The position numbers and the translations under genes are program-made. The notes beneath the pieces are model-generated. The model saw only the letters and a list, made by a program, of their open reading frames with translations. It was not told the DNA's origin and made no database searches. From positions 1-29,342 of the IMG/VR virus record IMGVR_UViG_3300027759_000313: a DNA stretch of 29,342 nucleotides; one strand, given 5' to 3'. This document shows, piece by piece, positions 5,374 to 20,079 of the stretch (the stretch's first letter is position 1; the number at the start of each line of letters is the position of its first letter). The DNA comes from a virus.

Positions 5374-5608
5374 AAGATTCAAAGCTGATGTTAAGCGTTA
5401 TACAGAAGCCATTGAAAAAATTCCCGAAGGTCAGTCAAAAACAGAAGCCAGAAGTCTTCTTAACAATCTCATTAATGAAGTAAAAAACATGGACAATATG
5501 TACATGGACATGGTCTATTCTAAACAGTTAACATCGTTAGGCGGAGAGATTCGAGATAAAATTACTTCCCTAAGAAAACAATTAGATAGTAGACTTAACT
5601 TCGTATGA
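5357..5608 (+). CDS. Small helical/coiled-coil protein of unknown function
   Basis: This 83-aa protein is rich in Lys, Glu, Asp and Leu with few turns. It has two stretches suited to amphipathic helices (about residues 5-47, and 58-79 ending ITSLRKQLDSRL). No motif for an enzyme or for metal binding is visible. It overlaps the Nudix-like gene by 17 bases and the first oxygenase gene by 4 bases (ATGA), so it is translated within the same operon. Small proteins of this kind near gp15 occur in T4-like marine phages; I do not know a function. Confidence 0.6.
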   Translation: MIQNTERFKADVKRYTEAIEKIPEGQSKTEARSLLNNLINEVKNMDNMYMDMVYSKQLTSLGGEIRDKITSLRKQLDSRLNFV

Positions 5609-6195
5609 ATTACAATATAGAAAACTTTGTAGGTGTATTTGAAAATGCAGTTTCGCCAGAGTACTGCAAAGAAACCATTGATTATTTTGAATCAATGCGC
5701 AGTCTCGATCTAGTAATAGACTCAAATCGATACTCTACAAAGGCCACTAACCTACGAAAAGACGAAACCGTATTTGCATTTCAACCCGAAGTGTTAGCAT
5801 TATATCCTACTCATTGGGCACTAAGAGGATTTACAGATGCATTTTGGCCTTGCTATCAAGAATATACCAAAGAATACAGTGCATTGTATAATGCTGCTAA
5901 ACACGGCATCATAGGCCTTAGAGTTCAACGTACTCCTGTAGGCGGTGGCTATCACGAATGGCATTTTGAAAATGGACATTTTGAAAATTCATCTAGAATA
6001 ATCACTATGATGCTGTACCTCAACGATGTCGACGAAGGTGGTGAAACTGAATTCTTATATCAGCACAGACGAGTCTCTCCAAAAGCAGGTACAATAGTGA
6101 TTTGGCCCACCGGATTTACTCACACACATCGAGGTAACCCTCCACTATCTAATACCAAGTATATAGTAACTGGTTGGTTAAACTTATTGGAGTAA
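5605..6195 (+). CDS. 2OG-Fe(II) oxygenase (PKHD/prolyl-hydroxylase-like) A
   Basis: This 196-aa protein has a double-stranded beta-helix (cupin-like) oxygenase fold. The predicted enzyme uses Fe(II), O2 and 2-oxoglutarate to hydroxylate a protein or small molecule. The core motif is GGYHEWHFE at 114-122, with His120 and Glu122 as likely metal ligands. YLNDVDEGGETEF at 138-150 and PKAGTIVIWP at 159-168 follow. The distal His is in FTHTHRG (173 or 175), with Lys185 in NTKYIVTGW as candidate 2OG anchor. HFEN is repeated at once (HFENGHFEN) from a 12-bp tandem DNA repeat at 5962-5988. It overlaps the upstream small gene by 4 bases and is the first member of the oxygenase island. The substrate is unknown. 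Confidence 0.85.
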   Translation: MNYNIENFVGVFENAVSPEYCKETIDYFESMRSLDLVIDSNRYSTKATNLRKDETVFAFQPEVLALYPTHWALRGFTDAFWPCYQEYTKEYSALYNAAKHGIIGLRVQRTPVGGGYHEWHFENGHFENSSRIITMMLYLNDVDEGGETEFLYQHRRVSPKAGTIVIWPTGFTHTHRGNPPLSNTKYIVTGWLNLLE

Positions 6196-6197
6196 GC

Positions 6198-6791
6198 ATG
6201 GGAACTGAGGCTATTTTTCCAACCCCAATATATTGGGCAACAGTAGATGATCCCCAAGTCCAGCAAAGATTCGAAGAAGTTTATACAAACTTAATCTCGA
6301 ACAACAAACTCCGTTATAAACCAAATTGGGCCAATACACATAAAATTAGTTCTATAGATTTTTCAGATAACCTAATAGAAGAGTCTGATCTTTTTGAATT
6401 TAAAAATGAACTAATGAATCATCTTTCAAAATACCTTGAAGATATAGGAAGAACTTCTGGTGTTGAACAGGTTAAAATAACAGCATCGTGGATGTCCGAG
6501 TTTTCTCAAGGAGATTATGCCCATCAACACTGCCACGGTGCCGCTGATATATCCGGAGTATATTATGTTAAGGCTGTTCCAGGTGATGCAAAATTTTATT
6601 TTAGGTCATCGAATAAAGGAATGAGCAGTTCTTACGCATTTAATCAGATACTTGATAAGAAAACAATTGAGCCAACAGCCGGGATGCTTATATTATTTCC
6701 AGGGTGGCTAGAACATGGGGTAGAAACACAATTGTCAGACCACAAACGTGTGAGTGTGTCATTTAATTTGGCTTTTATTCGCCAACTTTAA
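6198..6791 (+). CDS. 2OG-Fe(II) oxygenase, HxH type (TIGR02466/2OG-FeII_Oxy_5-like) B
   Basis: This is a 197-aa protein. The signature HQHCHGAADISGVYYV (residues 109-124) and the distal ILFPGWLEHGVETQ (165-178) followed by RVSVSFN (184-190) fit the small 2OG oxygenase family built on H-x-H...SGVYYV...FP..L.H.V....R.S.SFN. Candidate ligands are His111/His113 and His173, with Arg184 as 2OG anchor. The N-terminus IFPTPIYWATV is also typical. I start at ATG 6198 because GGAG lies 5 bases upstream and it follows the previous stop by 2 bases. An in-frame ATG at 6174 would overlap that gene. The family's substrates are largely unknown. Confidence 0.85.
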   Translation: MGTEAIFPTPIYWATVDDPQVQQRFEEVYTNLISNNKLRYKPNWANTHKISSIDFSDNLIEESDLFEFKNELMNHLSKYLEDIGRTSGVEQVKITASWMSEFSQGDYAHQHCHGAADISGVYYVKAVPGDAKFYFRSSNKGMSSSYAFNQILDKKTIEPTAGMLILFPGWLEHGVETQLSDHKRVSVSFNLAFIRQL

Positions 6792-6811
6792 TTTCAGAAG
6801 ACCCATGTTAA

Positions 6812-6819
6812 ACTAAATA
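6812..6819 (+). promoter_or_regulatory. Possible late promoter box before the 114-aa gene
   Basis: The sequence ACTAAATA matches 6 of 8 bases of TATAAATA. It lies in the largest gap of the rightward operon (6792-6846, 55 bases), upstream of a strong ribosome-binding site AAGGAG at 6835-6840. It could give the halogenase section its own transcript. The match is weak and AT-rich sequence makes chance matches common. Confidence 0.3.
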
Positions 6820-6846
6820 TCAAAAGTTATTTAAAAGGAGCATATT

Positions 6847-7191
6847 ATGCCATACAACCCAGAAGATCCAAATTCAGAAACGTACAAGCCATTAGGAACC
6901 AGCACATCGGTCATTCCTCCAACTGCCGATCCAGTCGCAGTTGCTGAAGAAGCAATTAGAATGTGTTTTCCGCAGTCTACTTCTAGGAATCAAGTTCCAG
7001 AAGCTTTAGCAACTGTAGAACAACTCCATAAACTTTGGAGCAGTTACAGGGATAGACAGACTTCTAAGACAGATACAATCACTGCCGTCGATGCGCTAGT
7101 ACAGCCTGCAATTACTAGAAATATTTTTGATGATGTTTGTTTAGAGTTTGTTAATAATGCTGTATCCGCAGTTAAAAACGTTAACCTATAA
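6847..7191 (+). CDS. Orphan 114-aa protein upstream of halogenase
   Basis: I do not recognise this protein. The first about 30 residues are Pro/Thr/Ser-rich and probably disordered (PYNPEDPNSE, SVIPPTADP). The rest looks helical, with a single Trp in QLHKLWSSYRD and two Cys (in RMCFPQ and DDVCLEF). There is no signal peptide or membrane segment. It has the best ribosome-binding site of the rightward operon (AAGGAG, 6 bases before ATG) after the longest gap, suggesting high expression. The halogenase-like gene starts 8 bases downstream. It could be a virion protein, a partner or a substrate of the neighbouring enzymes; nothing in the sequence decides. Confidence 0.7.
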   Translation: MPYNPEDPNSETYKPLGTSTSVIPPTADPVAVAEEAIRMCFPQSTSRNQVPEALATVEQLHKLWSSYRDRQTSKTDTITAVDALVQPAITRNIFDDVCLEFVNNAVSAVKNVNL

Positions 7192-7199
7192 GGCGATCA

Positions 7200-8792
7200 A
7201 TGATCAAGCCAGTTCATAAAATAGTAGTAGTCGGTGGCGGTTCAGCCGGATGGATGACCGCCGCTATGTTAATTAAAACTTTTCCGGATAGAGACATATT
7301 TGTAATTGAAAGCCCAGACTTCCCTATTCTTGGAGTAGGCGAAAGTACTTTGGGAGGAATCAATTCATATTGTCATTATCTAGGCATCGACGAAAAAGAT
7401 TTTATGACCTACACTGATGCCTCGTATAAAATGAGTATTAAATTTACAGATTTTTACGAAAAAGACAGTGGTGCTTTTCACTATCCGTTTGGATCTCCCT
7501 ATACTGAAGGTTTAGACGGAATGAAAGATTGGTTTGTTAAGAAACATCTAAATCCAGAAACTCCGATAGAAGATTTTGTAAGATGTTATTTTCCCGCTGC
7601 CGCATTATTTGAGCAAAATAAATTTAGCCTAAACAAATACGGGCAATTTGATAATTACAGTCCGGACTGGGATGTAGCCTATCATTTTGATGCAACTAAG
7701 TTTGGTCAATGGTTAAAAAATAATTATTGTTTACCAAGAGGTGTTAGACTAATTGCAGATACTGTAGTTGATGCCACTGTATCAGATAAAGGTATTGATT
7801 CTCTTAAACTAAACAATAGCGGAGATCTAGAGGCTGACCTGTATATTGACTGCACTGGATTTAAAAGTCTATTGTTAGGTGAATACTTAAAAGAACCGTT
7901 TAATTCTTATTCAGAAGTATTGCCTAATAATCGTGCTTGGGCTACTAGAATGCCCTATAAAAATAAAGAAGCAGAGTTAGAACCGTTTACAAATTCAACG
8001 GCTCTAGGTAATGGATGGGTTTGGAATATTCCCAGCTGGGAACGCCTAGGTACCGGTTATGTCTACAGCGATAAATTTATTAGCCCCGAAGATGCCAAAG
8101 AAGAATTTAAACAACATCTGATGAGCAATAAGATGTTGTTCCCTAGGACCAGAGAAGAGGTCGATGCACTTGAATTTAAAGATATTCCAATGAGAGTTGG
8201 TATGCACGAACGCACATTTGTTAAGAATGTTGTAGCTATTGGTCTTAGTGCAGGATTTATTGAACCTTTAGAATCCAACGGATTATTCAGTGTACATGAA
8301 TTTTTATTCAAATTATTAAAAATTCTAGAAAGGCCTGCTGTAACTCAATGGGATAAAGATGTATACAATGCAGGTGTATATGGATTATGGAGAAATTTTG
8401 CAGAATTTGTTGGATTACATTATGCATTAAGCATTAGAAATGATACACCTTACTGGCAGGCCAATGCTGAGAGAATTTATCGGCCTGGAATGCATAAGGT
8501 TGCACCGGATACCGCGCAAGGATACACTCAATTACATCATTCTAAAATGTTTGGGTCTGCAATGCCGGACGTTGCAGGTATGAATTGGGTCACTGTTGGT
8601 ATGAATTATTTTATCTATGATAAACAATCATTTATCATAGATTGTTTACACTATGACGGTGCAAGGATCAAAGAACATTCTGATAAAATAGTTCAAATAA
8701 TGGACTCAAGAAAAACAAAATGGTTAGATGCCGCAGAAAATAAACCAACTTTGTATCAATACCTAAAAGATAATATTCATAAAAAGGACTAA
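7200..8792 (+). CDS. prnA-like: Flavin-dependent tryptophan-halogenase-like protein
   Basis: This is a 530-aa protein of the PrnA/RebH family, which uses FADH2, O2 and chloride or bromide to make HOX and halogenate indoles. The FAD-binding GGGSAGW is at 12-18 and GVGEST at 45-50. The catalytic Lys equivalent is Lys77 in SYKMSIKF. The diagnostic WxWxIP motif is at 273-278 (WVWNIP). EPLESNG at 355-361 supplies the candidate catalytic Glu358, with Asn in place of the Thr that usually contributes to the halide site. Length is normal for the family (about 510-540). No flavin reductase is encoded in this window, so reduced FAD would come from the host. Homologues are known in some T4-like cyanophages. 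The substrate (free Trp, a peptide or another arene) is unknown. Confidence 0.88.
   Translation: MIKPVHKIVVVGGGSAGWMTAAMLIKTFPDRDIFVIESPDFPILGVGESTLGGINSYCHYLGIDEKDFMTYTDASYKMSIKFTDFYEKDSGAFHYPFGSPYTEGLDGMKDWFVKKHLNPETPIEDFVRCYFPAAALFEQNKFSLNKYGQFDNYSPDWDVAYHFDATKFGQWLKNNYCLPRGVRLIADTVVDATVSDKGIDSLKLNNSGDLEADLYIDCTGFKSLLLGEYLKEPFNSYSEVLPNNRAWATRMPYKNKEAELEPFTNSTALGNGWVWNIPSWERLGTGYVYSDKFISPEDAKEEFKQHLMSNKMLFPRTREEVDALEFKDIPMRVGMHERTFVKNVVAIGLSAGFIEPLESNGLFSVHEFLFKLLKILERPAVTQWDKDVYNAGVYGLWRNFAEFVGLHYALSIRNDTPYWQANAERIYRPGMHKVAPDTAQGYTQLHHSKMFGSAMPDVAGMNWVTVGMNYFIYDKQSFIIDCLHYDGARIKEHSDKIVQIMDSRKTKWLDAAENKPTLYQYLKDNIHKKD
8110..8140 (+). repeat. Perfect 10-bp inverted repeat inside the halogenase gene
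   Basis: The left arm is AACAACATCT at 8110-8119, the loop is 11 bases, and the right arm is AGATGTTGTT at 8131-8140. It is entirely within coding sequence with no T-run after it. Confidence 0.5.
8613..8647 (+). repeat. Overlapping alternative hairpins inside the halogenase gene
   Basis: Hairpin 1 has perfect 12-bp arms, ATCTATGATAAA at 8613-8624 and TTTATCATAGAT at 8631-8642, with a 6-base loop. Hairpin 2 has perfect 8-bp arms, AAACAATC at 8622-8629 and GATTGTTT at 8640-8647. They share bases, so only one can form at a time. They lie about 150 bases before the stop of the halogenase gene. Confidence 0.6.
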
Positions 8793-8793
8793 A

Positions 8794-9420
8794 ATGACTG
8801 TAGGATTATTCCCAGGTGAATTACACCCAAATGAAACCGTTGCCGGTTGTATCAGTATCTATGAAAAGGCTTGGCCAAATCCTTCGGAAGCTATTGCATT
8901 TATAGAAAGAGAAATTAGAGACCCTGATAGTGGCGTGGGTTTTCAACGAGCCACTACTGTTGGACAGGGACCGTTTCAAAAAGCACGAACTAATCAAGAT
9001 CTAGGTATTACTTGGTTAGCGCAGACTGTAGGAAATAAATTGATGAAAGACATTCATAATCAATTTTATTTTATGCTGTTGGCTGCAACAATTCCGTATT
9101 CTGAAAAATTTGGTATCCAAGAACCCTTGCACCACGAAGCATATAACATGCTAAAGTACAACACCGGACAAGAATACAAATCACATTATGATGGCGGAAC
9201 CAGGTTAGGAAGAGCTGTTAGTGCTATATGCTATTTAAATGATGACTATGTTGGTGGTGAAATTGAATTTCCGTTGCACAAAATTAAAATCAAGCCCGAA
9301 GCAGGGATGTTGATTTTATTTCCTTCCAACTATGCTTATCAACATGTTGCACATCCAATTATCTCAGGAACAAAATACGCACTGGTTACATGGTTACACG
9401 ATAGACCATTAGAAGGATAA
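8794..9420 (+). CDS. 2OG-Fe(II) oxygenase, prolyl-4-hydroxylase-like C
   Basis: This 208-aa protein has the classical P4H-type order. NMLKYNTGQEYKSHYDGG holds the metal pair His131-x-Asp133. AICYLNDDYVGGEIEFP is at 144-160 and KPEAGMLILFPS at 167-178. The distal His is 184 in YQHVAHPI, with Lys194 in SGTKYALVTW as 2OG anchor. All expected residues are present, so it should be active. Family members hydroxylate Pro or other residues in proteins, or free substrates; none can be assigned here. The ATG follows the halogenase stop by 1 base, with AAAAAGGA before it, so it is probably coupled to the halogenase. Confidence 0.9.
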   Translation: MTVGLFPGELHPNETVAGCISIYEKAWPNPSEAIAFIEREIRDPDSGVGFQRATTVGQGPFQKARTNQDLGITWLAQTVGNKLMKDIHNQFYFMLLAATIPYSEKFGIQEPLHHEAYNMLKYNTGQEYKSHYDGGTRLGRAVSAICYLNDDYVGGEIEFPLHKIKIKPEAGMLILFPSNYAYQHVAHPIISGTKYALVTWLHDRPLEG

Positions 9421-9424
9421 CTCT

Positions 9425-10084
9425 GTGGCCGAATCTACAGTATGTGCTATTTTTCCAATCCCTATCTATGTAACAGAATGTGATGTAGATATAGCTCCTG
9501 CTGTTGAGTTTTTAAAAAATCATAAAGATTTATTGCCCAATGACCATTCACAGATCTACGGAAACAAATCTGTAGACGATTATTTGTTAGATCGTTCAGA
9601 GTGTAACGAATTAAAAAGATTTATTATTTTACATATTGAAAAATATGCAGACAAAATAATGGCTTGGGATTTTGAAAGATTCGAAATTACACAAAGTTGG
9701 TTGACTATTAAACTCTCAGGAGAAGCTCACGGATTACATTTTCATCCTAATAGTGTTATCTCTGGGGTGTTTTATTTTGATGAATATCAAGAAGAAACTT
9801 CAAATTTAGTATTACACAGACCTGCAATAATGTCTCAATTAATGACTCATTTTGCTCCTGTTACTGATAGAAAAAAAATGAATGACACTGAGTTTCCCTG
9901 GAATGAATGGGAAATCAAACCTAAAAAAAATCAGCTGATATTGTTTCCGTCATGGTTGAGTCATAGTGTAAAACCAAACACTACACAACATGCTAGAAAA
10001 TGTCTAGCGTTTAATGCAGTTCCTGCTGGTAAATTTGGTTCTAAAGAAGGTGCTACAGAAATAGAGTTTAAGAGATTGGTATGA
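9425..10084 (+). CDS. 2OG-Fe(II) oxygenase, HxH type D
   Basis: This 219-aa protein belongs to the same small family as gene B. IFPIPIYV is at the N-terminus, HFHPNSVISGVFYF at 105-118 (His105, His107), and LILFPSWLSHSVKPN at 171-185 (His180). Arg191 with CLAFNAV completes the pattern. The middle (residues 120-165) is longer than in gene B. The start is a GTG at 9425, supported by AGAAGGA upstream and by the position just after the previous stop; there is no in-frame ATG early enough to keep the IFPIPIYV start. It overlaps the next gene by 4 bases (ATGA). Confidence 0.86.
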   Translation: MAESTVCAIFPIPIYVTECDVDIAPAVEFLKNHKDLLPNDHSQIYGNKSVDDYLLDRSECNELKRFIILHIEKYADKIMAWDFERFEITQSWLTIKLSGEAHGLHFHPNSVISGVFYFDEYQEETSNLVLHRPAIMSQLMTHFAPVTDRKKMNDTEFPWNEWEIKPKKNQLILFPSWLSHSVKPNTTQHARKCLAFNAVPAGKFGSKEGATEIEFKRLV

Positions 10085-10665
10085 TCGAACCAAAAATTTT
10101 AAAGCTATTTCCAAAAACTGTTTATTGTCAACAGAATCTTATGTTAGATAAGATAGAGTATCTGTATAATACCCTACACTCGTTAGATCTTCCGTGTAGC
10201 AAAGATTTAGCATTGTCAGTTAACTCATCTCACAAAACATTTCCTACCTTGCATCAACTAGAACCGTTTAAAGAATTTTCTAATATTGTTTTAGATCATG
10301 CTCGAGCTTACGGGAAAATGCTAGGTTATAGTGATACACAAAGAGATAAATTTAGATTTGTTAATATGTGGTTTAATCAAAGTTTTAAAGATGATTTTAA
10401 TTTTCCGCATCTACATAATGGTAGTATCATCTCAGGAGTGTTTTATATAAAAACAGTTTCTAAAAATAAAATTGTTTTTCAAAATTTCTCAGATCAGCTC
10501 ATTGAGCCGGACGATCCTACAGATCTAGCATGGAATATGAGTTGGATTGATACTGAGCCAGGCTTGTTGTTATTATTCAAAAGTAATTTAATACACAGCA
10601 ATCCTAGGCAAGAAGATGAAAATGAAAAATTAATTATTTCGTTTAATGTTACAATGGATTTATAA
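10081..10665 (+). CDS. 2OG-Fe(II) oxygenase, HxH type E
   Basis: This 194-aa protein is related to genes B and D. LFPKTVYC is near the N-terminus, FPHLHNGSIISGVFYI at 108-123 (His110, His112), and GLLLLFKSNLIHSNPRQ at 161-177 (His172). Lys183 with LIISFNV takes the place of the Arg normally anchoring 2OG. Of the HxH set in this island it has the least typical distal region (LFKSNL instead of LFPSWL). The ATG overlaps the stop of the previous gene. The fusion gene starts 1 base after its stop. Confidence 0.8.
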   Translation: MIEPKILKLFPKTVYCQQNLMLDKIEYLYNTLHSLDLPCSKDLALSVNSSHKTFPTLHQLEPFKEFSNIVLDHARAYGKMLGYSDTQRDKFRFVNMWFNQSFKDDFNFPHLHNGSIISGVFYIKTVSKNKIVFQNFSDQLIEPDDPTDLAWNMSWIDTEPGLLLLFKSNLIHSNPRQEDENEKLIISFNVTMDL

Positions 10666-10666
10666 T

Positions 10667-12622
10667 ATGAAAAAAAGACTAGGTGTTATTGGAGCAGGAT
10701 CGGCAGGGCTGATCAGTGCTGGTTATTTTTGTACAGTTTTAGATAACGCTTGGGAAATTGTTTTAATGCATGATCCTAAGTTAGATTCTTTAGGAGTAGG
10801 AGAAAGTACCAACGGTAATTTTGTTAAAACTCTCGAAGAGGCTATGGGTTTTACCTTTGAAGACGGCATGGTTGACCTAGATGCAACTAAGAAGTTTGGC
10901 ACTAAATTTATCAACTGGCGGGACAAACCTTTTATAAGTCCGTTGATTCAAGGAACGGCTGCTGTTCACTTTAATACTCGCAAATTTAAAGATTATACAC
11001 TAAAGAAACTTCCAGAAATGTGGCCGGAAAAATTCAAAGTGTTAGAAGGCGTAGTCGATGACCTTCAACAAAATGTCAATCATGCTGTAGTGACAATAGA
11101 TCACGAACAGCAGGTATTTGATTATGTGATCGATTGCCGAGGATTTCCTAAGAACTTTGACGATTATACCTTTAGCAACTGTACTTTGGTTAATCATTGT
11201 CTAGTGTACGACAGTCCTAAATTTAACCCTGTTGAATATACTGAGCATCATGCTACAGAAAACGGATGGATGTTCGGAGTACCTTTGCAAACAAGATGTA
11301 GTTACGGATACTTGTTTAATAATGAAATAACTTCTAAAGAAGATGCCCTTGCTGATTTTGCAAAACTAATGAAAGTATCTAAGTCTAAATTAGATTTTCG
11401 AGAGTATGAATTTAAACCCTACTATGCTAAGAAATTTTTAACAAATAGAATACTTAAAAACGGTAACAACGCTATATTCTTTGAACCAATTAGTGCCACA
11501 AGTATTTTCATGTACATACGAATCTGTGAAACTTTTTTAAAAGTAATAGTTGGAGAATACACTGAATTAGATTTAAATCAAGTTATTCGAAACGATTTAG
11601 AAGATTTAGAAACTGTTATTAGATGGTATTATCACAACGGCAGCATCCACGATACAGAATTTTGGCAGACAGCTAAATCACGAGCTACCGATCAGTTAAT
11701 GGGAGACTGGAAGTTTGAACGTTTATGTTCAATTTATAAAACTTTAGCAAAGGAAGGTAGGCCCTACGACGATGACGGAATGATTTTTACTGCTAAATCA
11801 TGGCACACCTTGGATAATATATTTGGTTGCCGGTATTTTACAGAAAATGATTTTATCTTTGACATGGAAAGAGTTGAGCAGCATCGTAAAATGCTTGAGG
11901 ATCGAATGGCTGAAGAATTAAAAAATTGTGAGTTGTTTACAAAAAACAAAAAAGCATTTGAAAAACAAGGTTATGTAGTTGTAAAGAATGTATTAGATGA
12001 ACTTACAGTTGATTTGATTACACACTATGCCCTAAATGATCAGTTACAAAATTTTAATCCCGAACTGGGAGGGTCTGCACAAATTCCAGGAACCCATAGC
12101 AAATATGCAGATCCCTTGATGGAATCATTGTTAGCACAAATGTCCCCTGTTATGGAAAGAGCTACAGGATTAAAATTATTGCCAACATACAGCTATTATC
12201 GTGTATATAAACCAGGAGATACATTACATCCACATTCAGATAGAGATAGTTGTGAAATTTCGTGTACTGTATGTTTTAATTTTAATTATGGAGAAATGCA
12301 AGATACTTATAAATGGCCGATATTTATGAGTGGTACAGCCTGCGATCTAAGTCCTGGAGATATTGCTGTCTACAGAGGTTGTGATATTTTACATTGGCGA
12401 GATGAATTTAAAGCTCCTGAGGGATCGTGGCATGTTCAGGCGTTCTTACATTACGTAGATGCTAACGGATCTCGTGCAGAGTGGCAATTTGACAAACGTC
12501 CAGGATTGGGTTTTTCTCAAGATTATCGAGAAAATATGATACAGGCGAATATAGAAGTACAACATGCCCCTGCTATTACAAATAAAACCGCCAGCAAAAA
12601 ATATATAACCTACACAGAATAA
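10667..12622 (+). CDS. Halogenase-like flavoprotein fused to 2OG-Fe(II) oxygenase
   Basis: This is a 651-aa two-domain protein. Residues 1 to about 420 follow the tryptophan-halogenase plan: GAGSAG at 9-14, LGVGEST at 42-48, and KKFGTKFINW at 75-84 with Lys76 matching the catalytic Lys. Two hallmarks are altered: WxWxIP reads WMFGVP at 201-206, and the catalytic-Glu motif EPLEST reads EPISAT at 273-278, placing Ser276 where Glu is needed. Residues about 425-610 form a 2OG oxygenase: HPHSDRD gives His523-x-Asp525, and DILHWRDEF gives distal His576; SWHVQAFLHYV follows. I use ATG 10667, just after the previous stop, because the FAD motif then begins at residue 8. The continuous frame excludes a simple mis-join. 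The flavin half is probably not a standard halogenase. Confidence 0.85.
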   Translation: MKKRLGVIGAGSAGLISAGYFCTVLDNAWEIVLMHDPKLDSLGVGESTNGNFVKTLEEAMGFTFEDGMVDLDATKKFGTKFINWRDKPFISPLIQGTAAVHFNTRKFKDYTLKKLPEMWPEKFKVLEGVVDDLQQNVNHAVVTIDHEQQVFDYVIDCRGFPKNFDDYTFSNCTLVNHCLVYDSPKFNPVEYTEHHATENGWMFGVPLQTRCSYGYLFNNEITSKEDALADFAKLMKVSKSKLDFREYEFKPYYAKKFLTNRILKNGNNAIFFEPISATSIFMYIRICETFLKVIVGEYTELDLNQVIRNDLEDLETVIRWYYHNGSIHDTEFWQTAKSRATDQLMGDWKFERLCSIYKTLAKEGRPYDDDGMIFTAKSWHTLDNIFGCRYFTENDFIFDMERVEQHRKMLEDRMAEELKNCELFTKNKKAFEKQGYVVVKNVLDELTVDLITHYALNDQLQNFNPELGGSAQIPGTHSKYADPLMESLLAQMSPVMERATGLKLLPTYSYYRVYKPGDTLHPHSDRDSCEISCTVCFNFNYGEMQDTYKWPIFMSGTACDLSPGDIAVYRGCDILHWRDEFKAPEGSWHVQAFLHYVDANGSRAEWQFDKRPGLGFSQDYRENMIQANIEVQHAPAITNKTASKKYITYTE

Positions 12623-13215
12623 TGCCAGAACCTAGAAGTTTATTAATCTTAGATAATGCTTTCTCAAAAGAACAACAAGATTATATTGAAAATTTTGTAA
12701 TTAATGATCAATTTCCTTGGTTTTTTCAAAGAGATATTGCCGGGGCAGAATACACCGCTAATGATGAAAACTATTTTCCATCTAGTGGGTTAACTCATGT
12801 TAGCTATAACTACGAAAAAATTAATTCTATATACTTTAAAGATGAGATAAACTTTGAAAAAATTGTAAGTGATTTAGCCAAAGCATTTAGTGTTGAATTA
12901 AAAGAAATTTTAAGAATTAAATTAAACTTAACAACGCCTATTCCTAGATATAAATCTAACAACTATTGCACTCCACACACTGATATTGCTACACCTCACT
13001 GGGTGTTGTTATATTATATAAATGACTGTGACGGAGATACAATATTCTTTGAAAACCCTACAGTAGGTAATCAAAATCCTTTAAAGATTACCTATAGAGT
13101 TTCTCCTAAAAAAGGCACCTGTGTGTTATTTGACGGCAGCATTTATCATACATCATCTAACCCGATAAACTCTCCTATGAGGGTAAATTTAAATGCAAAT
13201 GTAATTTTATTATGA
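12622..13215 (+). CDS. 2OG-Fe(II) oxygenase F (tandem paralogue 1)
   Basis: This is a 197-aa protein. YCTPHTDIAT supplies His119-x-Asp121, YYINDCDGDTIFFEN is the central strand-turn, and SPKKGTCVLFDGSIYHTSSNP supplies His176 in two pieces around residues 161-180. Arg187 in SPMRVNLN is the likely 2OG anchor. All catalytic positions are present. The next gene shares the same order of motifs and about the same length, so the two are tandem duplicates that have diverged strongly. The start overlaps the fusion-gene stop (TAATG). Confidence 0.84.
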   Translation: MPEPRSLLILDNAFSKEQQDYIENFVINDQFPWFFQRDIAGAEYTANDENYFPSSGLTHVSYNYEKINSIYFKDEINFEKIVSDLAKAFSVELKEILRIKLNLTTPIPRYKSNNYCTPHTDIATPHWVLLYYINDCDGDTIFFENPTVGNQNPLKITYRVSPKKGTCVLFDGSIYHTSSNPINSPMRVNLNANVILL

Positions 13216-13799
13216 TAGAAGAAATTGAAAATATTATCGACAAGTCTATACAAGATTCTATAGAACAATTTGTGTTAACTACAAACTTTCCTTGGTATCA
13301 CGGATCTACAATCAACGAGTACGACACTGACAAAGAAGACAGTAAGTTTATTGTGAAACAAGGTTTGAATCCCTATCAGTTTGTGCATAATGTTATAAAA
13401 GATTCTAGACAAAACAGTAGATTTCTTGGGTTGGTTAATCCTATTCTTGATGCCATCGGAGAGTATGTTAAAAAAGATCTTGAAGTATTAAAAGTTAAGT
13501 TTAATTTTTTACCTAGACATACAGATTCTAGCCATCATTGTCCGCATGTTGACATAGGTACTTACAAAAAAGAAAATATCAAGAGCGTTGTTTATTATGT
13601 TAATGACAGTGACGGAGATACTTATTTCTTTGACGAAACATGTCCCACTGAAAGAACAAGTTTAAATGTTATGCAGACTATTTCTCCTAAAAAAGGAAAA
13701 GCCGTAATGTTTGATTCCAACATATTTCATGCTAGCTCTAGCCCTATTCTATCAGATAAAAGAATAGTAATTAACATTGTTTTTAAAATATTGGACTAA
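13212..13799 (+). CDS. 2OG-Fe(II) oxygenase G (tandem paralogue 2)
   Basis: This 195-aa protein parallels the gene before it: NFPWYHG near residue 25, HCPHVDIGT with His112-x-Asp114, YYVNDSDGDTYFFDE, SPKKGKAVMFD, His173 in IFHASSSPI, and Arg184 in DKRIVINIV. The conserved spacing of every motif supports duplication and retention of activity. It overlaps its twin by 4 bases (ATGA). Confidence 0.84.
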   Translation: MIEEIENIIDKSIQDSIEQFVLTTNFPWYHGSTINEYDTDKEDSKFIVKQGLNPYQFVHNVIKDSRQNSRFLGLVNPILDAIGEYVKKDLEVLKVKFNFLPRHTDSSHHCPHVDIGTYKKENIKSVVYYVNDSDGDTYFFDETCPTERTSLNVMQTISPKKGKAVMFDSNIFHASSSPILSDKRIVINIVFKILD

Positions 13800-13802
13800 C
13801 AA

Positions 13803-14441
13803 ATGGATATACCTTATAATAATTATAAATTTGTAGATTTTGGTTATGTGATGGCCGATCTACCACAGAGTTTAAATGCTTCCTTATTATCCGAAGCTGC
13901 TAAGATACAATCAGATTTTTCTAAGGCGATACCTCGTCATAAAACTCTTGCTGGGCATCTTGTACACGAGTATGAACTTGTAGATAGTGCCGCTGAATTA
14001 GAAAAATTTGTTTTAGATCTAACAATGGCCTACGATCACGAATATAACTATCTAGCAGAAATTGATATATTAACTAAAAGTGTTCCGATGGTTGCAAGTC
14101 ATCCTTGGATTAATTTTCAACAAAAATATGAATTTAATCCGGTACATAACCATAAAGGTATTTTAAGTTTTGTAGCTTGGTTGAAAATACCCTATGATTT
14201 AAAAACTGAATGGGAACAAGGTCCCGGGCGCCATCGTAGTTCTCAGCTAAACTCAGCGTTTCAGTTTGTATATGTAGGGAATCTAGGACAGGCTGCTACT
14301 AAGACTATTCATATAGACAAGTCCTTTGAAGGGAAAATAATGATATTCCCTTCAAAGCTAATGCATTGCGTTTATCCTTTTTACACCAGCGACGATTATA
14401 GAATCAGTATTGCTGGCAATGTCATGCTTGACCCAAATTAA
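13803..14441 (+). CDS. 2OG-Fe(II) oxygenase, HxH type H
   Basis: This 212-aa protein is the last gene of the island. WINFQQKYEFNPVHNH at 102-117 ends with His115 and His117 and leads into KGILSFVAWLKIP. IMIFPSKLMHCVYPFY at 179-194 gives distal His188, and DDYRISIAGNV gives Arg200. The layout matches genes B, D and E, but the SGVYYV motif is replaced by LSFVAWL, so it is the most divergent of the HxH group. A perfect 12-bp hairpin lies in its last 120 bases. Its TAA overlaps the stop of the convergent 136-aa gene within TTAA. Confidence 0.78.
   Translation: MDIPYNNYKFVDFGYVMADLPQSLNASLLSEAAKIQSDFSKAIPRHKTLAGHLVHEYELVDSAAELEKFVLDLTMAYDHEYNYLAEIDILTKSVPMVASHPWINFQQKYEFNPVHNHKGILSFVAWLKIPYDLKTEWEQGPGRHRSSQLNSAFQFVYVGNLGQAATKTIHIDKSFEGKIMIFPSKLMHCVYPFYTSDDYRISIAGNVMLDPN
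14324..14357 (+). repeat. Perfect 12-bp inverted repeat near the 3' end of the island
   Basis: The left arm is CTTTGAAGGGAA at 14324-14335, the loop is AATAATGATA, and the right arm is TTCCCTTCAAAG at 14346-14357. It sits inside coding sequence, about 85 bases before the stop of the last rightward gene, where the transcript meets the leftward operon. No T-run follows. It may protect or process the mRNA end. Confidence 0.6.
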
Positions 14442-14869: not shown

Positions 14870-16876
14870 TTACAAGTGTCTAATAATTACGACTCCAGTG
14901 CCGCCATTTCCTGCTACACCTGGGCTTGGATGCGATCCGCCACCGCCACCACCACCGGTATTAGCACTGCCAGTACCACCGGTTACGCTTCCTCCAGGGC
15001 CATTATGGTCGCCTGCACGGCCGCCGCCGCCGCCACCTCCGGGACTATTTCCTATTCCGTAATGACCTTGTGCTGCAGGACCGTGCTGGCCACCACCACC
15101 ACCGCCTGCATAGTATACTTGTGATCCTGTAATAGAGCTTGCCAAAGCTCGGCCGCCACTGCGAAAATCATTTACTAGTCCCACACCTCGACCTTTAGAT
15201 CCAGCGCCACCGCCTCCGCCACCTGCATACAGTGTGCCAGGTCCTGGAAAATTTCCAAATCCTGTGCCGTTACCGTGGGTTCCGGCACCTCCGGGATGGC
15301 CTTGTCCCGCAATACCCGATCCTCCAGGTACCAGCATAATGTTGCCAATGCCACCGCGGGATGAGCTAGGTCCACCATAAATTCCGCCTGGGCCGCCGAT
15401 GTGGCCCCCAGGGCCACCACCACCTGATCCGCCATTGGCTTTATCTCCCGGCCATACTCCCCCACCAGCGCCGCCATATCCGGTATTAGGATTGTAATAC
15501 TGTGCGCCACTGCCTCCGCCTCTAGCTTCCAATGAAGCAAATCTGCTTGGATTTCCGCCAGTTAATCCTGCATCTGTCCATGTGGTGGCACCTGTGCCAC
15601 CTGTGCCAACAGTTACTGGATACGATCCAGCATTAACTCTGTATCGGCTTTGATAGATAAAGCCGCCTGCGCCTGCGCCACCGCCAATTGTTCCACCACC
15701 ACCACCACCACCTATCACTAGTACTTCAATAGTTGCTGGTTGATTAAATGTCATTGTACCAGGCCCAGTAAATGTTTTTACCTGGTAACCACCTGCGGTA
15801 GTTCCTGTAACTGTTCCTGAAGTTGATGAACCAACAGATGCACCTATACTGCTCCAACCACTGTTTTCCAATATTTCTGGAAGAGCAGTTGTCGAGTTAT
15901 AACGCATTTCTCCTAGAACACTGTTGTAGGCAATGATCACTACTCCTGCACTGCTGACACTGGCATTGGAGCCTGGTCCCATTCCACCGCCACCGCTGCC
16001 AAAGCCGCTGGCAACATAGGCGGTCCCAAGGTCGCCGCCACCGCCCTTGCCGCCCACTCCCCAATAAGTTCCACTGTCACTGGTTGAGCCGCCGCCGCCT
16101 GCATAATATGTAGGTGTTCCAGATATAGTGCTGGCGAGTCCATCTCCACCATAGCCAATGTTGGTATCTCCAGCTTTCCATTGCCAACCTCGCATGTCAG
16201 TTATACGTTCCCATGTACCTTCACCTTCAAAGTAACTAGTGTTAGATGGATCTACTTTTAATCCGTTACCGCCCTTGGCTCCAGCGCCCCCACCACCTGA
16301 TCCGCCGGTATAGTTGTATCTATTTCCTGTGTTTAAACCGGGTAGGCCACCGTCGTTTCCCTGGCCTGAGGTTGTTGTACCTTGTCCGTTGTAGTTACTG
16401 GTAACTCCTGCACCAGAACCTACTGAGCCAGCACTGCCTACAGGTGCACCGTTTGACCAGTAGCCGCCGCCTTGGCCGCCATAGGCAGTTTGACCAAAGG
16501 CCACAGTATTATTTCCTTGTACTGAAGCGTTGTTTCCGCCTGCTACGCCTGCACCTATCGAAACAGTATAGGTGCTACCAGGCGTTACTGTAAAGTTTCC
16601 GTTATAGATGTAGCCGCCTGCGCCACCTCCACCTCCAACGTCACCACCCCCTGATCCGCCTGCTCCAATGACCAGTAAACGAATACTGGTTACACCTGCT
16701 GGTGCTACCCATTGAGAATTTGAAATTCCCGAAGGAGTACTGCCAGTTACCACAGTATACCCACCGGTAGTCCATCGAATTACTGTTTCGCCGGTTCCTG
16801 CTCTGGCATTAGTTGCTCCAGAAGGTAATTGCAGGAAACCTGTATCATTAATTGTAAGATTTTTTAAAGTCGCCAT
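14870..16876 (-). CDS. Glycine-rich adhesin-like tail protein, double unit
   Basis: This 668-aa protein begins MATLKNLTINDTGF, as do the next two genes. It contains two glycine-rich domains in tandem, roughly residues 35-320 and 350-668. Each opens with a GGY-x-V...F/G-T strand and RLLVIGAGG or EVLVIGGGGGGG, continues with GGYIYNG or GGFIYQS and poly-Gly loops, and closes with VVIIAYN or VVIIRHL. The junction carries a fibre-type segment, GEMRYNSTTALPEI...GWSSIGA, that in the paralogues stands near the N-terminus, so two units seem to have fused. Glycine-rich loops recall the receptor-binding adhesins (gp38 type) of T-even phages. I infer a host-recognition role. No Shine-Dalgarno is visible; it starts 12 bases after the gene upstream. 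Confidence 0.75.
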   Translation of the reverse strand: MATLKNLTINDTGFLQLPSGATNARAGTGETVIRWTTGGYTVVTGSTPSGISNSQWVAPAGVTSIRLLVIGAGGSGGGDVGGGGGAGGYIYNGNFTVTPGSTYTVSIGAGVAGGNNASVQGNNTVAFGQTAYGGQGGGYWSNGAPVGSAGSVGSGAGVTSNYNGQGTTTSGQGNDGGLPGLNTGNRYNYTGGSGGGGAGAKGGNGLKVDPSNTSYFEGEGTWERITDMRGWQWKAGDTNIGYGGDGLASTISGTPTYYAGGGGSTSDSGTYWGVGGKGGGGDLGTAYVASGFGSGGGGMGPGSNASVSSAGVVIIAYNSVLGEMRYNSTTALPEILENSGWSSIGASVGSSTSGTVTGTTAGGYQVKTFTGPGTMTFNQPATIEVLVIGGGGGGGTIGGGAGAGGFIYQSRYRVNAGSYPVTVGTGGTGATTWTDAGLTGGNPSRFASLEARGGGSGAQYYNPNTGYGGAGGGVWPGDKANGGSGGGGPGGHIGGPGGIYGGPSSSRGGIGNIMLVPGGSGIAGQGHPGGAGTHGNGTGFGNFPGPGTLYAGGGGGGAGSKGRGVGLVNDFRSGGRALASSITGSQVYYAGGGGGGQHGPAAQGHYGIGNSPGGGGGGGRAGDHNGPGGSVTGGTGSANTGGGGGGGSHPSPGVAGNGGTGVVIIRHL

Positions 16877-16888
16877 AGTATGTTTGTC

Positions 16889-17983
16889 TTATGTTGTTCT
16901 GTATCTAACGATAACAATTCCAGCAGAACCATTTCCGCTTCTGTAACTGTCTGGGTGGTGTGCTGAGCCACCGCCGCTACCGTGTCCTGTTGCATCCATA
17001 TATGCCTGTGGTCCGCCGCTGTAGCTTCCGCCGCCGCCGCCAAGACTTCGACCTGCTTGATCTCTAGCATAGTTATCTGCAGGACCATGACTGCCGCCAG
17101 CGCCACCACCGGCATAATATGTTACTGCTGTGCCGGTGATCGAACTAGATGCTCCGTCGCCACCTTTGGCTTCGTAGTATAGACCTTGACGATTATAACC
17201 CATTTCTCCAGCTCCGCCGCCACCTGCGCCACCGTATACGCAAATACTAGGTTGTGGATAAACATGAGAACCTGGACCGCCGGCCGCACCATAGTGGTGG
17301 TGTCCCCATCCTCCAGGATGCCCTTGACCGATAATTCCATCGCCTGGTTTCTTTTGTCCGTAACCAGGAAAGCTGACTCCGCCAAATGTTTGTCCGTTGC
17401 CACCGCCACCGCCACCGCCACCACTTCCGCCAGGATCTCCAACGTTTCCACTATAGCTGTAGCCTCGGCCACCACCTGTAGAAATTACACCTGTAGGGCC
17501 GCCAAATATGCTGGGATTTCCAGGAGTATGTGTGTTGTTTGTATGACCAGTAGCACCTGATCCGCCTGTACCTACAGTAACAGCATAACCTGTACCGCCA
17601 GTTACTCCATAACTTCCGTTATAGATATACCCCCCGCCACCCCCGCCACCTGATAAACCAGATCCGCCACCACCACCTGCAACTACCAATAGTTCAACAG
17701 TTCCGGGATAAGTCGGGGTAAAAGTACCAGGACTGGTAAAGGTATGTACATTGAAGCCACCACGCGATGCTGCTGCTGTGTTGCCAGTAGTTGTTCCACC
17801 TGAGGCTGCTTGAATACTAGCGCCGATGGTTTTCCAAACTGTGCCGTCATAATATTCTGTTGTACTGTTAGTGGTGTTATATCTTATCATGCCAGCAGCG
17901 GCTGTTGCTCGATTACCAGTTGTACCTTGAGGTAAACGTACAAATCCTGTGTCGTTGATTGTGAGATTTTTTAACGTTGCCAT
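16889..17983 (-). CDS. Glycine-rich adhesin-like tail protein, single unit 1
   Basis: This is a 364-aa protein. The N-terminal fibre-type module is ATLKNLTINDTGFVRLP, then GMIRYNTTNSTTEYYDG and VWKTIGAS. After a spacer comes one glycine-rich domain: GGFNVHTFTSPGTFTP, VELLVVAGGGGG, GGYIYNGSYGV, a long Gly/Ser/Tyr/His region including AGGGAGGSHGPADNY, and a closing IVIVRYRTT. The layout equals that of the next gene and of the second half of the previous one. It probably forms part of a tail-fibre tip or host-contact site. It is separated by only 6 bases from the gene upstream, with no clear Shine-Dalgarno, so translational coupling is likely. Confidence 0.75.
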   Translation of the reverse strand: MATLKNLTINDTGFVRLPQGTTGNRATAAAGMIRYNTTNSTTEYYDGTVWKTIGASIQAASGGTTTGNTAAASRGGFNVHTFTSPGTFTPTYPGTVELLVVAGGGGGSGLSGGGGGGGYIYNGSYGVTGGTGYAVTVGTGGSGATGHTNNTHTPGNPSIFGGPTGVISTGGGRGYSYSGNVGDPGGSGGGGGGGGNGQTFGGVSFPGYGQKKPGDGIIGQGHPGGWGHHHYGAAGGPGSHVYPQPSICVYGGAGGGGAGEMGYNRQGLYYEAKGGDGASSSITGTAVTYYAGGGAGGSHGPADNYARDQAGRSLGGGGGSYSGGPQAYMDATGHGSGGGSAHHPDSYRSGNGSAGIVIVRYRTT

Positions 17984-17989
17984 TTTTAA

Positions 17990-19075
17990 TTAACTCGCTT
18001 TGTATCGTACTACTACAATACCTTGATAACCGTTGCCGCCTGCTTCGTTTGGATATGGATAGGTTCCACTTGCACCACCGCCACCATAATATGTACCGTT
18101 GCCACCATAACTTTGTGTGCCTCCGGGATATGCATCACCGCCACCTCCTAGGCCACCACGTGCTCTTGCCCAACCATAGTTATTGCCGGGTCCGTGATTT
18201 CCACCTGCGCCACCACCTGCATAGTATGTAGCAGTACCAGTAATTGAACTAGATGCTCCGTCTCCACCTGCGGCAACCCCTCGCATGTTTAGATCCCAGG
18301 TAATTAAACTGGCATCATCTAATTGACTTGTAGGCCAGTTGCCAACTCTACACCAGCCGTTTTCGCCTGCTCCACCACCGCCACCGCCACCATAGTGTGT
18401 ACCTGCAGGTGTACCTGGCCAGTGTGCGCCGGCACCTCCTGGAAATCCTTGTCCTAGAGTACCACCTTCAACTGCTGGCCGCCAGCTAGCACCATTAACG
18501 TGTCCGCCAGGGCCGCCTCCACCACTTCCGCCAAAGTTTTTCGGTGCTCCGCTGTCTGGTGAGGGATAAGCCATTCCGGCTCCGCCACCTAAGGCAGTGA
18601 GACCTAGACCAGTTGTATCAGTACCCCTTGTATGGCTGTCGTTGCCGTGATTAGCACCACCTGCTGCGCCACCAGGTCCAATTGATATAGGATATGTTGT
18701 ACCACCTGTAACCATTACACCTTGATTGTACAACATGCCTCCAGCACCACCGCCACCTGCAATTCCAGATGCTCCGGCACCACCGCCACCTACTAGCAAT
18801 ATGTCCACAGGACCGGTGTAGGTTGGCACAAAGTTTGCACTGCTGGTAAAGGTATGTATAGTATAACCACCTGTAGTTGCAATTGTTCCGCCAGTGGCAG
18901 TTTGTTTCTCGTCAGCTGCTACCCAACCGGCAGCAGTGTACACTTCAACAGAAGCAGTAGTAGTATTAAACCTAACCATACCTACAGTTGGGGAACCAGG
19001 TCTTTCTCCTGTGGTACCAGTCGGTAACTGAATATGACCAGTATCGTTGATAGTAAGATTTTTTAAGGTTGCCAT
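17990..19075 (-). CDS. Glycine-rich adhesin-like tail protein, single unit 2
   Basis: This 361-aa paralogue of the previous gene has the N-terminus ATLKNLTINDTGHIQLP with GMVRFNTTTASVEVYTAAG. The glycine-rich domain then runs from GGYTIHTFTSSANFVP and DILLVGGGGAG to IVVVRYKAS. It contains AGGGAGGNHGPGNNY, the same HGP motif as its neighbours. The loops differ most, as expected for receptor-binding parts. The first 38 coding bases of the three paralogues encode nearly the same peptide but differ at synonymous sites, so the duplications are old. It starts 5 bases after the S74 gene stop; AAGG overlapping that stop may serve as ribosome-binding site. Confidence 0.75.
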   Translation of the reverse strand: MATLKNLTINDTGHIQLPTGTTGERPGSPTVGMVRFNTTTASVEVYTAAGWVAADEKQTATGGTIATTGGYTIHTFTSSANFVPTYTGPVDILLVGGGGAGASGIAGGGGAGGMLYNQGVMVTGGTTYPISIGPGGAAGGANHGNDSHTRGTDTTGLGLTALGGGAGMAYPSPDSGAPKNFGGSGGGGPGGHVNGASWRPAVEGGTLGQGFPGGAGAHWPGTPAGTHYGGGGGGGAGENGWCRVGNWPTSQLDDASLITWDLNMRGVAAGGDGASSSITGTATYYAGGGAGGNHGPGNNYGWARARGGLGGGGDAYPGGTQSYGGNGTYYGGGGASGTYPYPNEAGGNGYQGIVVVRYKAS

Positions 19076-19080
19076 TTGGG

Positions 19081-20079
19081 TTATTTACCTTCTTTCAATT
19101 TGGTAATTTCTTTCTCAAGTGTTTTAATAGATTCAATTAGATAAGCAGTTAGCTTGGTATAGTAAATGCCTTCTGGGTTTCCATCTTTGTCTTTGCTGAC
19201 AAGATTTGGAATAACTTTATCTACATCTTCAGCAATTAAACCAGCTTCGCCTTTTCTGCTGCCGTCTTTACGATCGTAGGTTACGCCTACTAGACTTAGA
19301 ATAGCATCTAAAGCGTTGGTAATTGGCATTACATTTTCTTTTAATGCAATACTAGATGTTTCTGTAACTGTTGTAGCACTGATTGTAGTGCAGGTAATCT
19401 GGCCGCTTGCTCCAATACCGCCTGTAACGACCAGCGTACCTGTACCGGTAGTAGTCGAAGCTACGTTATCAGTCATTAAAATACTAGCAGTAGCTTTTGT
19501 AGCACTTGTAGTACCTCTTAGAGTTAATGTTCCACTGTTTGCCGCACTACCATAGACATTGGCTCCTAAATATGCTGTAGCAGTTAACTCGCCAGTACTT
19601 GGAACAAACGCCAAGTTTGCCCTGTTATTCAGACCAGTAACCTGACCACTGGTATATATACTGCCAGAATTAGTAGCAAATATTGGATAGTATACAGTTG
19701 CAGTAGATCCAGGATCAGTTACTGCAATACCGCCTGAAGCCAATGATGTCCAACTCAGTGTGCCATCAGTCGCCGAAGTTAGTGCATAACCAGCAACACT
19801 AGTAACCGCTGACGGCCAAGTTAGTGTGTAGTTTGTTGCAATTGTAGCAGCAGATTTGTGAGCTACGTAGTTTGAACTGTCGGCGTCTGCTAGACGCAGT
19901 TCCGACTGTGCATTAAGCTGTGCGGCTCCAACTATCTGTGTAATACCAGTTCCGTTAGGATCAATAATTATATTTTGATTAGTTACCGCGGTTGATAAAG
20001 TATTACCGGTGCCGCTGGCAATAATAGTACCCATGCCTCCACCACTACCGACAATACCAATACTTACTTTACGTCCCAT
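19081..20079 (-). CDS. Tail-fibre protein with C-terminal S74 chaperone domain
   Basis: This 332-aa protein has Gly/Thr/Ser/Ala-rich beta-structured repeats over residues 1-235. These include ELRLADADSSNYVAHKS and NYTLTWPSAVT, common in phage fibres. The C-terminal peptidase S74 (intramolecular chaperone) domain spans about 240-325: SSIALKENVMPI, VTYDRKDGS, GEAGLIAEDVDKVIP and YYTKLTAYLIESIKTLE, ending in a coiled-coil tail. S74 domains assist fibre trimerisation and cleave themselves off using a Ser-Lys pair; Ser242/243 and Lys247 are the candidates. The ATG is preceded by AAGGCGG. It sits between the adhesin-like genes and the small virion protein, in one leftward operon. Confidence 0.85.
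   Translation of the reverse strand: MGRKVSIGIVGSGGGMGTIIASGTGNTLSTAVTNQNIIIDPNGTGITQIVGAAQLNAQSELRLADADSSNYVAHKSAATIATNYTLTWPSAVTSVAGYALTSATDGTLSWTSLASGGIAVTDPGSTATVYYPIFATNSGSIYTSGQVTGLNNRANLAFVPSTGELTATAYLGANVYGSAANSGTLTLRGTTSATKATASILMTDNVASTTTGTGTLVVTGGIGASGQITCTTISATTVTETSSIALKENVMPITNALDAILSLVGVTYDRKDGSRKGEAGLIAEDVDKVIPNLVSKDKDGNPEGIYYTKLTAYLIESIKTLEKEITKLKEGK

Follow-up and report, generated by a model that had tools for sequence, protein, structure and literature searches.

A halogenase-type flavin domain fused to an Fe(II)/2-oxoglutarate hydroxylase-type domain, encoded in an oxygenase cluster beside the tail-fibre genes of an uncultured phage

What is known about the proteins that most resemble the two halves of the viral fusion described here? 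On the flavin side, VirX1 of cyanophage Syn10 (PDB 6QGM), an iodinating, variant A flavin-dependent halogenase (FDH), shares with the fusion its fold, the FAD motifs, the catalytic lysine and the type of gene cluster, but differs in having the catalytic glutamate, the WxWxIP motif and a substrate insert, and in being devoid of a 2-oxoglutarate (2OG) domain; we found no statement of its native substrate in the open-access literature. The cyanophage 'tryptophan halogenases' of T4-GC 212, proteins of about 360-390 residues from S-SSM5, S-MS29, S-SSM7 and S-ShM2 (PMC3037559), have 29-37% identity to the FAD half and the same WxF motif, NGN motif and absence of the insert. Unlike the fusion, they are standalone, are mostly encoded outside oxygenase clusters and carry Glu or Gln at the position equivalent to residue 276, and no reported function was found for them in the open-access literature. 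That FDH-related flavoproteins can act on protein residues has a precedent in QhpG, a halogenase-like flavin monooxygenase that dihydroxylates peptidyl tryptophan (PMC7876137), and in LodB, both of which mature peptidyl Trp, although their profile similarity to the short viral proteins is weak, with a best score of 18.8 bits where the cut-off is 240. A natural FDH fusion has also been described (PMC8407142), showing that FDHs can be fused, but with a different partner domain and in a different pathway. On the 2OG side, the phrog_2954 proteins of HTVC033P, Mosig and S-RIM44 belong to the family of the fusion's C-terminal half and are standalone, with about 180-250 residues; to go by name and size only, Sullivan GC 615 ('ferrochelatase-domain') would be the same family.

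The stretch of DNA analysed here, which we call the window, is the complete 29,342-base IMG/VR contig of an uncultured, myovirus-type phage, carrying genes for neck (head-tail adaptor), tail-sheath-stabiliser and tail-fibre proteins. The fusion and its parts are laid out as follows.

10667-12622, plus strand: fusion gene, 651 residues, short halogenase-like FAD domain and prolyl-4-hydroxylase (P4H)-type 2OG-Fe(II) oxygenase
10667-11854, plus strand: FAD half, residues 1-396, with GxGxxG (9-14), Lys76, WMFGVP (201-206) and Ser276 at the Glu position
11855-11956, plus strand: helical linker, residues 397-430, variable
11957-12541, plus strand: 2OG half, residues 431-625, with the iron triad H523, D525 and H576 and a P4H/PHD-type fold
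12542-12619, plus strand: C-terminal tail, mostly of low confidence in the model; the three aligned fusions have a KKYIxY motif at its end

The frame runs uninterrupted up to the stop at 12622. Its mechanical start lies at 10646; the start at 10667 (MKKR...) comes right after the stop codon of the preceding gene and is common to the four close homologues. Pfam places Trp_halogenase (PF04820) in the N-terminal half with an E-value of 2.7e-36, and PHROGs, run on the 658-residue reading, assigns residues 104-422 to phrog_2928 ('tryptophan halogenase') and 437-619 to phrog_2954 (E 2e-43). The AlphaFold model, built from 58 sequences, has a mean pLDDT of 90.7 and a pTM of 0.81. Pfam, PHROGs and the predicted folds thus bear out what had been read from the sequence alone, namely that a single frame joins a halogenase-type FAD domain to a C-terminal oxygenase with an HxD...H signature.

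Is the joint real? As the two halves are usually separate genes, an artefact of sequencing or assembly, for instance a lost stop codon, had to be considered. However, three further viral contigs encode homologous fusions at 52-60% identity, of 641 (L012), 656 (L013) and 653 residues (L300), all with Ser at position 276, and the four contigs are separate, come from different IMG samples and agree in the joint as well as in gene order. In all of them a sheath-stabiliser gene is followed by a small protein, a 2OG gene, small proteins, a VirX1-like halogenase, three 2OG genes, the fusion, more 2OG genes and a 136-residue protein on the opposite strand, after which come glycine-rich genes where the contigs extend that far; L012 ends short of them. 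A further contig, L023, displays this gene order as well, but stops within the flavin half. The homologous fusions refute an erroneous joining of two genes, which can be dismissed for practical purposes. In the codon comparison of the fusions, dN amounts to 0.27-0.39 at a near-saturated synonymous change (pS 0.63-0.74) in both halves, and purifying selection, as judged from these sequences, acts on both; the linker is variable, with 25-33% identity between fusions across residues 401-440.

The fusion is nevertheless rare, as the sequence-only reading had supposed when it named no described enzyme with this domain pair. It occurs in only 3 of 74 non-redundant loci with a short FAD gene (hereafter short-FAD loci), and a named collection of 50,697 phage records contains none that matches 80% of its length. 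A single-sequence scan of viral contigs gave no matches. Within the reach of present searches, no description exists of a flavin halogenase-type domain naturally fused to an Fe/2OG hydroxylase. In one locus, L087, two genes that overlap each encode one of the domains (2OG family at 706-1329, flavin at 1329-2504), and a glycine-rich gene is close by.

In the model, some 380 residues of the flavin half can be superposed on tryptophan halogenases (Z 38.9 for SttH, 37.1 for PrnA and 29.4 for VirX1). Its nearest relatives are standalone proteins of about 390 residues, present in at least 448 viral stretches and in cyanophages. Throughout the 68 sequences compared, the glycines of GxGxxG (G9, G11, G14), Trp201 and Lys76, which aligns with the catalytic lysine of full-length halogenases (K79 of PrnA and VirX1), are invariant. 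The catalytic glutamate (E346 of PrnA, E358 of Thal) is absent from the fusion, where Ser276 stands at the Glu of the EPLES motif; the alignment with full-length halogenases therefore leaves Lys76, Ser276 and WMFGVP at the very positions originally assigned to them, with no Glu at the catalytic site. Across the 68 sequences, position 276 is occupied by Ser in 32, Glu in 17 (two of them the full-length halogenases), Phe in 14, Thr in three and Gln in two. Instead of WxWxIP the fusion has WMFGVP, the second Trp being replaced by Phe in all 66 short members, and alignment with VirX1-like proteins shows about 54 residues to be missing from the region, between Lys strand and FAD helix, that forms the substrate-binding insert. 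Conversely, NGN, Tyr283 and mostly His194 are common to the short members and absent from the full-length halogenases. In a quick tree calculated with position 276 excluded, the 49 Ser/Phe/Thr sequences form one well-supported group, so that the Glu was probably lost once, at the base of this group. Standalone relatives of the flavin half, with no 2OG neighbours, also occur in seven bacterial genome bins (L292-L298; Vampirovibrio, myxobacteria and others); the six whose motif was read have Val or Ile at the Glu position.

What does the loss of the glutamate imply? It had been taken to mean that the domain was repurposed. The active site is indeed altered, and the alteration is conserved, but the conclusion was too strong, as phenol halogenases lack this Glu too (PMC8407142) and Lys76 is kept in every sequence; in PrnA, exchange of the Glu for Gln slows the enzyme about a hundredfold (PMC8407142). 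Loss of the Glu does thus not exclude halogenation, and we prefer to say that the flavin half has probably been retuned, given that its altered site (Ser276, WMFGVP, missing insert) is conserved. A catalytically dead FAD half that only positions the substrate for the 2OG half would be in line with Ser, Phe, Thr, Val or Ile at the Glu position and with the loss of the motif's second Trp. We regard it as improbable, for Lys76, the FAD glycines and Trp201 persist in all 68 sequences despite their wide divergence, the flavin half appears to be under purifying selection, and the standalone members lack a 2OG domain that they could assist. Likewise, the purely substrate-holding role that had been suggested at the outset is unlikely, because every FAD and Lys residue is retained. 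The short family, constant in its FAD and Lys residues but variable at the Glu position, is most readily understood as active on a different substrate. Among the genes of the window that were scanned, none was recognisable as a flavin reductase.

Folded by itself (pLDDT 93.3), the 2OG half yields a double-stranded beta-helix. Its best Foldseek match is the Pseudomonas putida prolyl-4-hydroxylase PPHD (4J25, E 3e-10), followed by PHD2 and others, and a second aligner ranks SnoN (Z 18.0) and the P. putida enzyme (16.9). P4H/PHD enzymes hydroxylate prolines in proteins. PPHD (4J25/4IW3), PHD2 and SnoN are the closest solved folds, at Z 16-18, but with only 14-17% identity of PPHD and PHD2 to the 2OG half their preference for protein substrates is not transferable. 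All three aligned fusions, and all 45 of the 2OG-domain sequences compared, keep the iron triad of H523, D525 and H576. The conserved HxD...H triad marks the half as being of the hydroxylase type; an Fe(II)/2OG halogenase of the HxG/A type is ruled out, the Asp being kept in all 45. With regard to the basic residue that in such enzymes binds the C5 carboxylate of 2OG, R578 directly follows the HW and other Arg residues are invariant, but no Lys or Arg is invariant at the usual +9 to +12 past the distal His. The ferrochelatase function implied by the name of phrog_2954 is a label only, as the 2OG half has a P4H fold and the protein no Pfam match besides PF04820 at E<=1. Among phrog_274, phrog_2954 and phrog_3531, the names 'DNA endonuclease V' and 'ferrochelatase' are attached to families with 2OG-Fe(II) members in the window, this identity resting on Pfam for two genes (12622-13799) and on predicted fold for the fusion; these names probably mislead the annotation of many phages.

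The setting of the fusion, which had not been used before, constitutes a larger finding than the fusion itself. Between the neck and tail genes and the glycine-rich tail-fibre genes, a cluster at 5605-14441 holds eight further 2OG oxygenase genes and a full-length halogenase, which is the closer relative of VirX1 in the window.

5605-6195, plus strand: 2OG-Fe(II) oxygenase, PF13640
6174-6791, plus strand: 2OG-Fe(II) oxygenase, PF13759
7200-8792, plus strand: full-length VirX1-like flavin-dependent halogenase (VirX1 E 8e-102), with Lys, Glu and WxWxIP intact
8794-9420, plus strand: 2OG-Fe(II) oxygenase, PF13640
9425-10084, plus strand: 2OG-Fe(II) oxygenase, PF13759, TIGR02466
10081-10665, plus strand: 2OG-Fe(II) oxygenase, PF13759
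12622-13215, plus strand: 2OG-Fe(II) oxygenase, weak PF13640 (below cut-off), phrog_274 'DNA endonuclease V'
13212-13799, plus strand: 2OG-Fe(II) oxygenase, PF13640, phrog_274
13803-14441, plus strand: 2OG-Fe(II) oxygenase, PF13759
14438-14848, minus strand: 136-residue protein (L012:9721-10131; L013:9745-10155; L300:10453-10860)
14870-19075, minus strand: three glycine-rich proteins (28-32% Gly), proposed substrates, PF21722 in the two scanned
19081-20079, minus strand: tail fibre protein with Peptidase_S74 chaperone domain

The conserved 136-residue protein (MPQFKSxKNIFGDFGDEVW) at the border between oxygenase cluster and glycine-rich genes has no Pfam or PHROG match. For the glycine-rich protein at 14870-16876, tblastn gave no match in phage records, perhaps due to the low-complexity filter. 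Further along the minus strand, at 20441-28132, lies a 2563-residue virion-type protein with seven CBM_5_12 carbohydrate-binding modules, probably a host-attachment fibre. PADLOC assigned neither the fusion nor the VirX1-like protein to a defence system; its generic '2OG' model, listed with CRISPR-Cas systems, matches the neighbouring 2OG proteins only. A scan for sigma-70 promoters and terminators gave little more than shuffled sequences did.

For the 2OG genes of cyanophages, DNA repair or 2OG signalling has been proposed (PMC3037559, PMC2984593), and by extension the oxygenases of the window could reduce the host's 2-oxoglutarate or take part in DNA repair, with the flavin half as an accessory. 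Against this stand the nine different 2OG domains and the halogenase in one cluster, which argue for diverse, specific substrates, and the position of the cluster beside fibre genes rather than metabolic or repair genes; we consider such a role very unlikely.

How general is the association? We compared short-FAD loci with 75 viral loci drawn at random by means of an arbitrary 14-mer. The counts rest on local profiles from the window's own genes and fetched relatives, applied to loci of unequal length, with near-duplicates removed but kinship among loci ignored; read in this light, 2OG genes are 15 times denser around short-FAD genes (1.92 against 0.13 per 10 kb), other 2OG genes occur in 31/49 short-FAD loci against 5/75 random ones (p 1e-11), and a full-length halogenase is near the short-FAD gene in 35/74 loci against 0/75. 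Glycine-rich genes accompany the 2OG family of the C-terminal half (26/65 loci against 5/75, p 3e-6).

Equivalent modules are found in named phages. VirX1 itself is CPUG_00131 of Syn10 (L372:8004-9596), where three glycine-rich genes and a second halogenase precede it and a run of 2OG/JmjC-like genes follows, ending with a member of the fusion's 2OG family; its position between glycine-rich fibre genes and 2OG/JmjC-like genes is suggestive as to its natural substrate. S-RIM44, S-CREM1 and Sf-CH11 have arrangements of this kind beside fibre genes, that of S-CREM1 including a gene annotated as collagen-like, and pelagiphage Mosig has such a module without halogenase.

Taken with the predicted folds, the catalytic residues, their conservation and the gene setting, these modules suggest that the fusion is a two-domain oxygenase belonging to a module with which the phage modifies virion proteins, a reading to which we give an even chance and in which substrate and chemistry are inferred. 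The flavin half would take FADH2 from a host reductase, form the C4a-hydroperoxide and, via Lys76, oxidise, that is halogenate or hydroxylate, an electron-rich aromatic side chain, most simply tyrosine; a Tyr-like target would not need the Glu, so that the Glu-less domain fits such a residue. The fused 2OG half would hydroxylate an aliphatic residue close by in that polypeptide, most likely the glycine-rich or collagen-like product of an adjacent fibre gene; an active site left open by the missing insert would suit a protein substrate. Being joined, the two domains would make their modifications in a set order or stoichiometry, whereas other phages have separate genes for the two steps.

Several observations weigh against fibre modification. 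Around short-FAD genes, glycine-rich genes are not clearly enriched (6/49 loci against 5/75). Several standalone short-FAD genes, as in S-MS29, S-SSM7 and P-TIM40, are near replication or metabolic genes, and the bacterial relatives stand alone. In a Rosetta-stone test, a separate gene of the 2OG family near the short-FAD gene is weakly enriched (8/74 against 2/75, p 0.056), which is suggestive at most. Matches to T4-type late promoters in the window are not above chance, with none for TATAAATA and four, below chance, for CTAAATA. In S-SCSM2R, finally, the fusion's 2OG family is encoded among glycosyltransferase, sugar-modification and radical SAM genes, so that non-protein substrates are possible.

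The main rival is the tailoring of a small molecule or glycan, in which fusion and neighbours would make a modified metabolite or sugar for infection or for attachment to the virion. It owes this rank to the short-FAD genes in replication or metabolic regions, the glycosyltransferases of S-SCSM2R and the standalone bacterial relatives. The substrates of known FDHs are mostly small molecules. The radical SAM gene of S-SCSM2R and carbamoyltransferase genes in some clusters (L051) also speak for tailoring, as does the antibiotic-like product proposed for cyanophage prnA (PMC2984593, PMC9964418). Yet the window showed no gene for building a scaffold, such as an NRPS or PKS; in several phages the clusters have fibre and neck genes as neighbours; and the short family is devoid of the substrate-binding insert. 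On this evidence, we judge tailoring to be rather unlikely.

If virion-protein modification is correct for the fusion, a broader proposal can be formulated, which we advance tentatively and with more doubt than confidence: many marine and freshwater tailed phages may possess a dedicated line of flavin halogenases, their Glu-less short relatives and several 2OG hydroxylases for oxidising or halogenating residues of their own glycine-rich or collagen-like tail fibres, with such a fibre as the natural substrate of VirX1 and the fusion as a two-step enzyme of that line. In the open-access literature we found nothing on virion modification by such clusters, nor a link between these genes and fibres. 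The proposal would provide VirX1 with a natural role that can be tested on the virions of an existing phage. Fibres with halogenated or hydroxylated residues would, if present, add a new layer to host recognition and offer a source of enzymes for protein labelling, the fusion being of particular interest as it pairs two chemistries that may act on one substrate.

Some further gene families recur in these loci. A family of 230-280 residues, one member of which matches DUF6065, accompanies halogenase clusters in 21 short-FAD loci against one random locus (L030:1017-3159, L372:9580-10368, L374:9685-10392, and in L346, L073 and L332). Carbamoyltransferase genes, a further tailoring activity, are found inside halogenase/2OG clusters at L051:4208-5998 (by Pfam) and L073:3033-4817 (by its similar start). 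Phage GroEL/GroES genes adjoin such clusters at L055:9734-11706 (Cpn60 and Cpn10 by Pfam) and, by their look, at L345:4956-6918.
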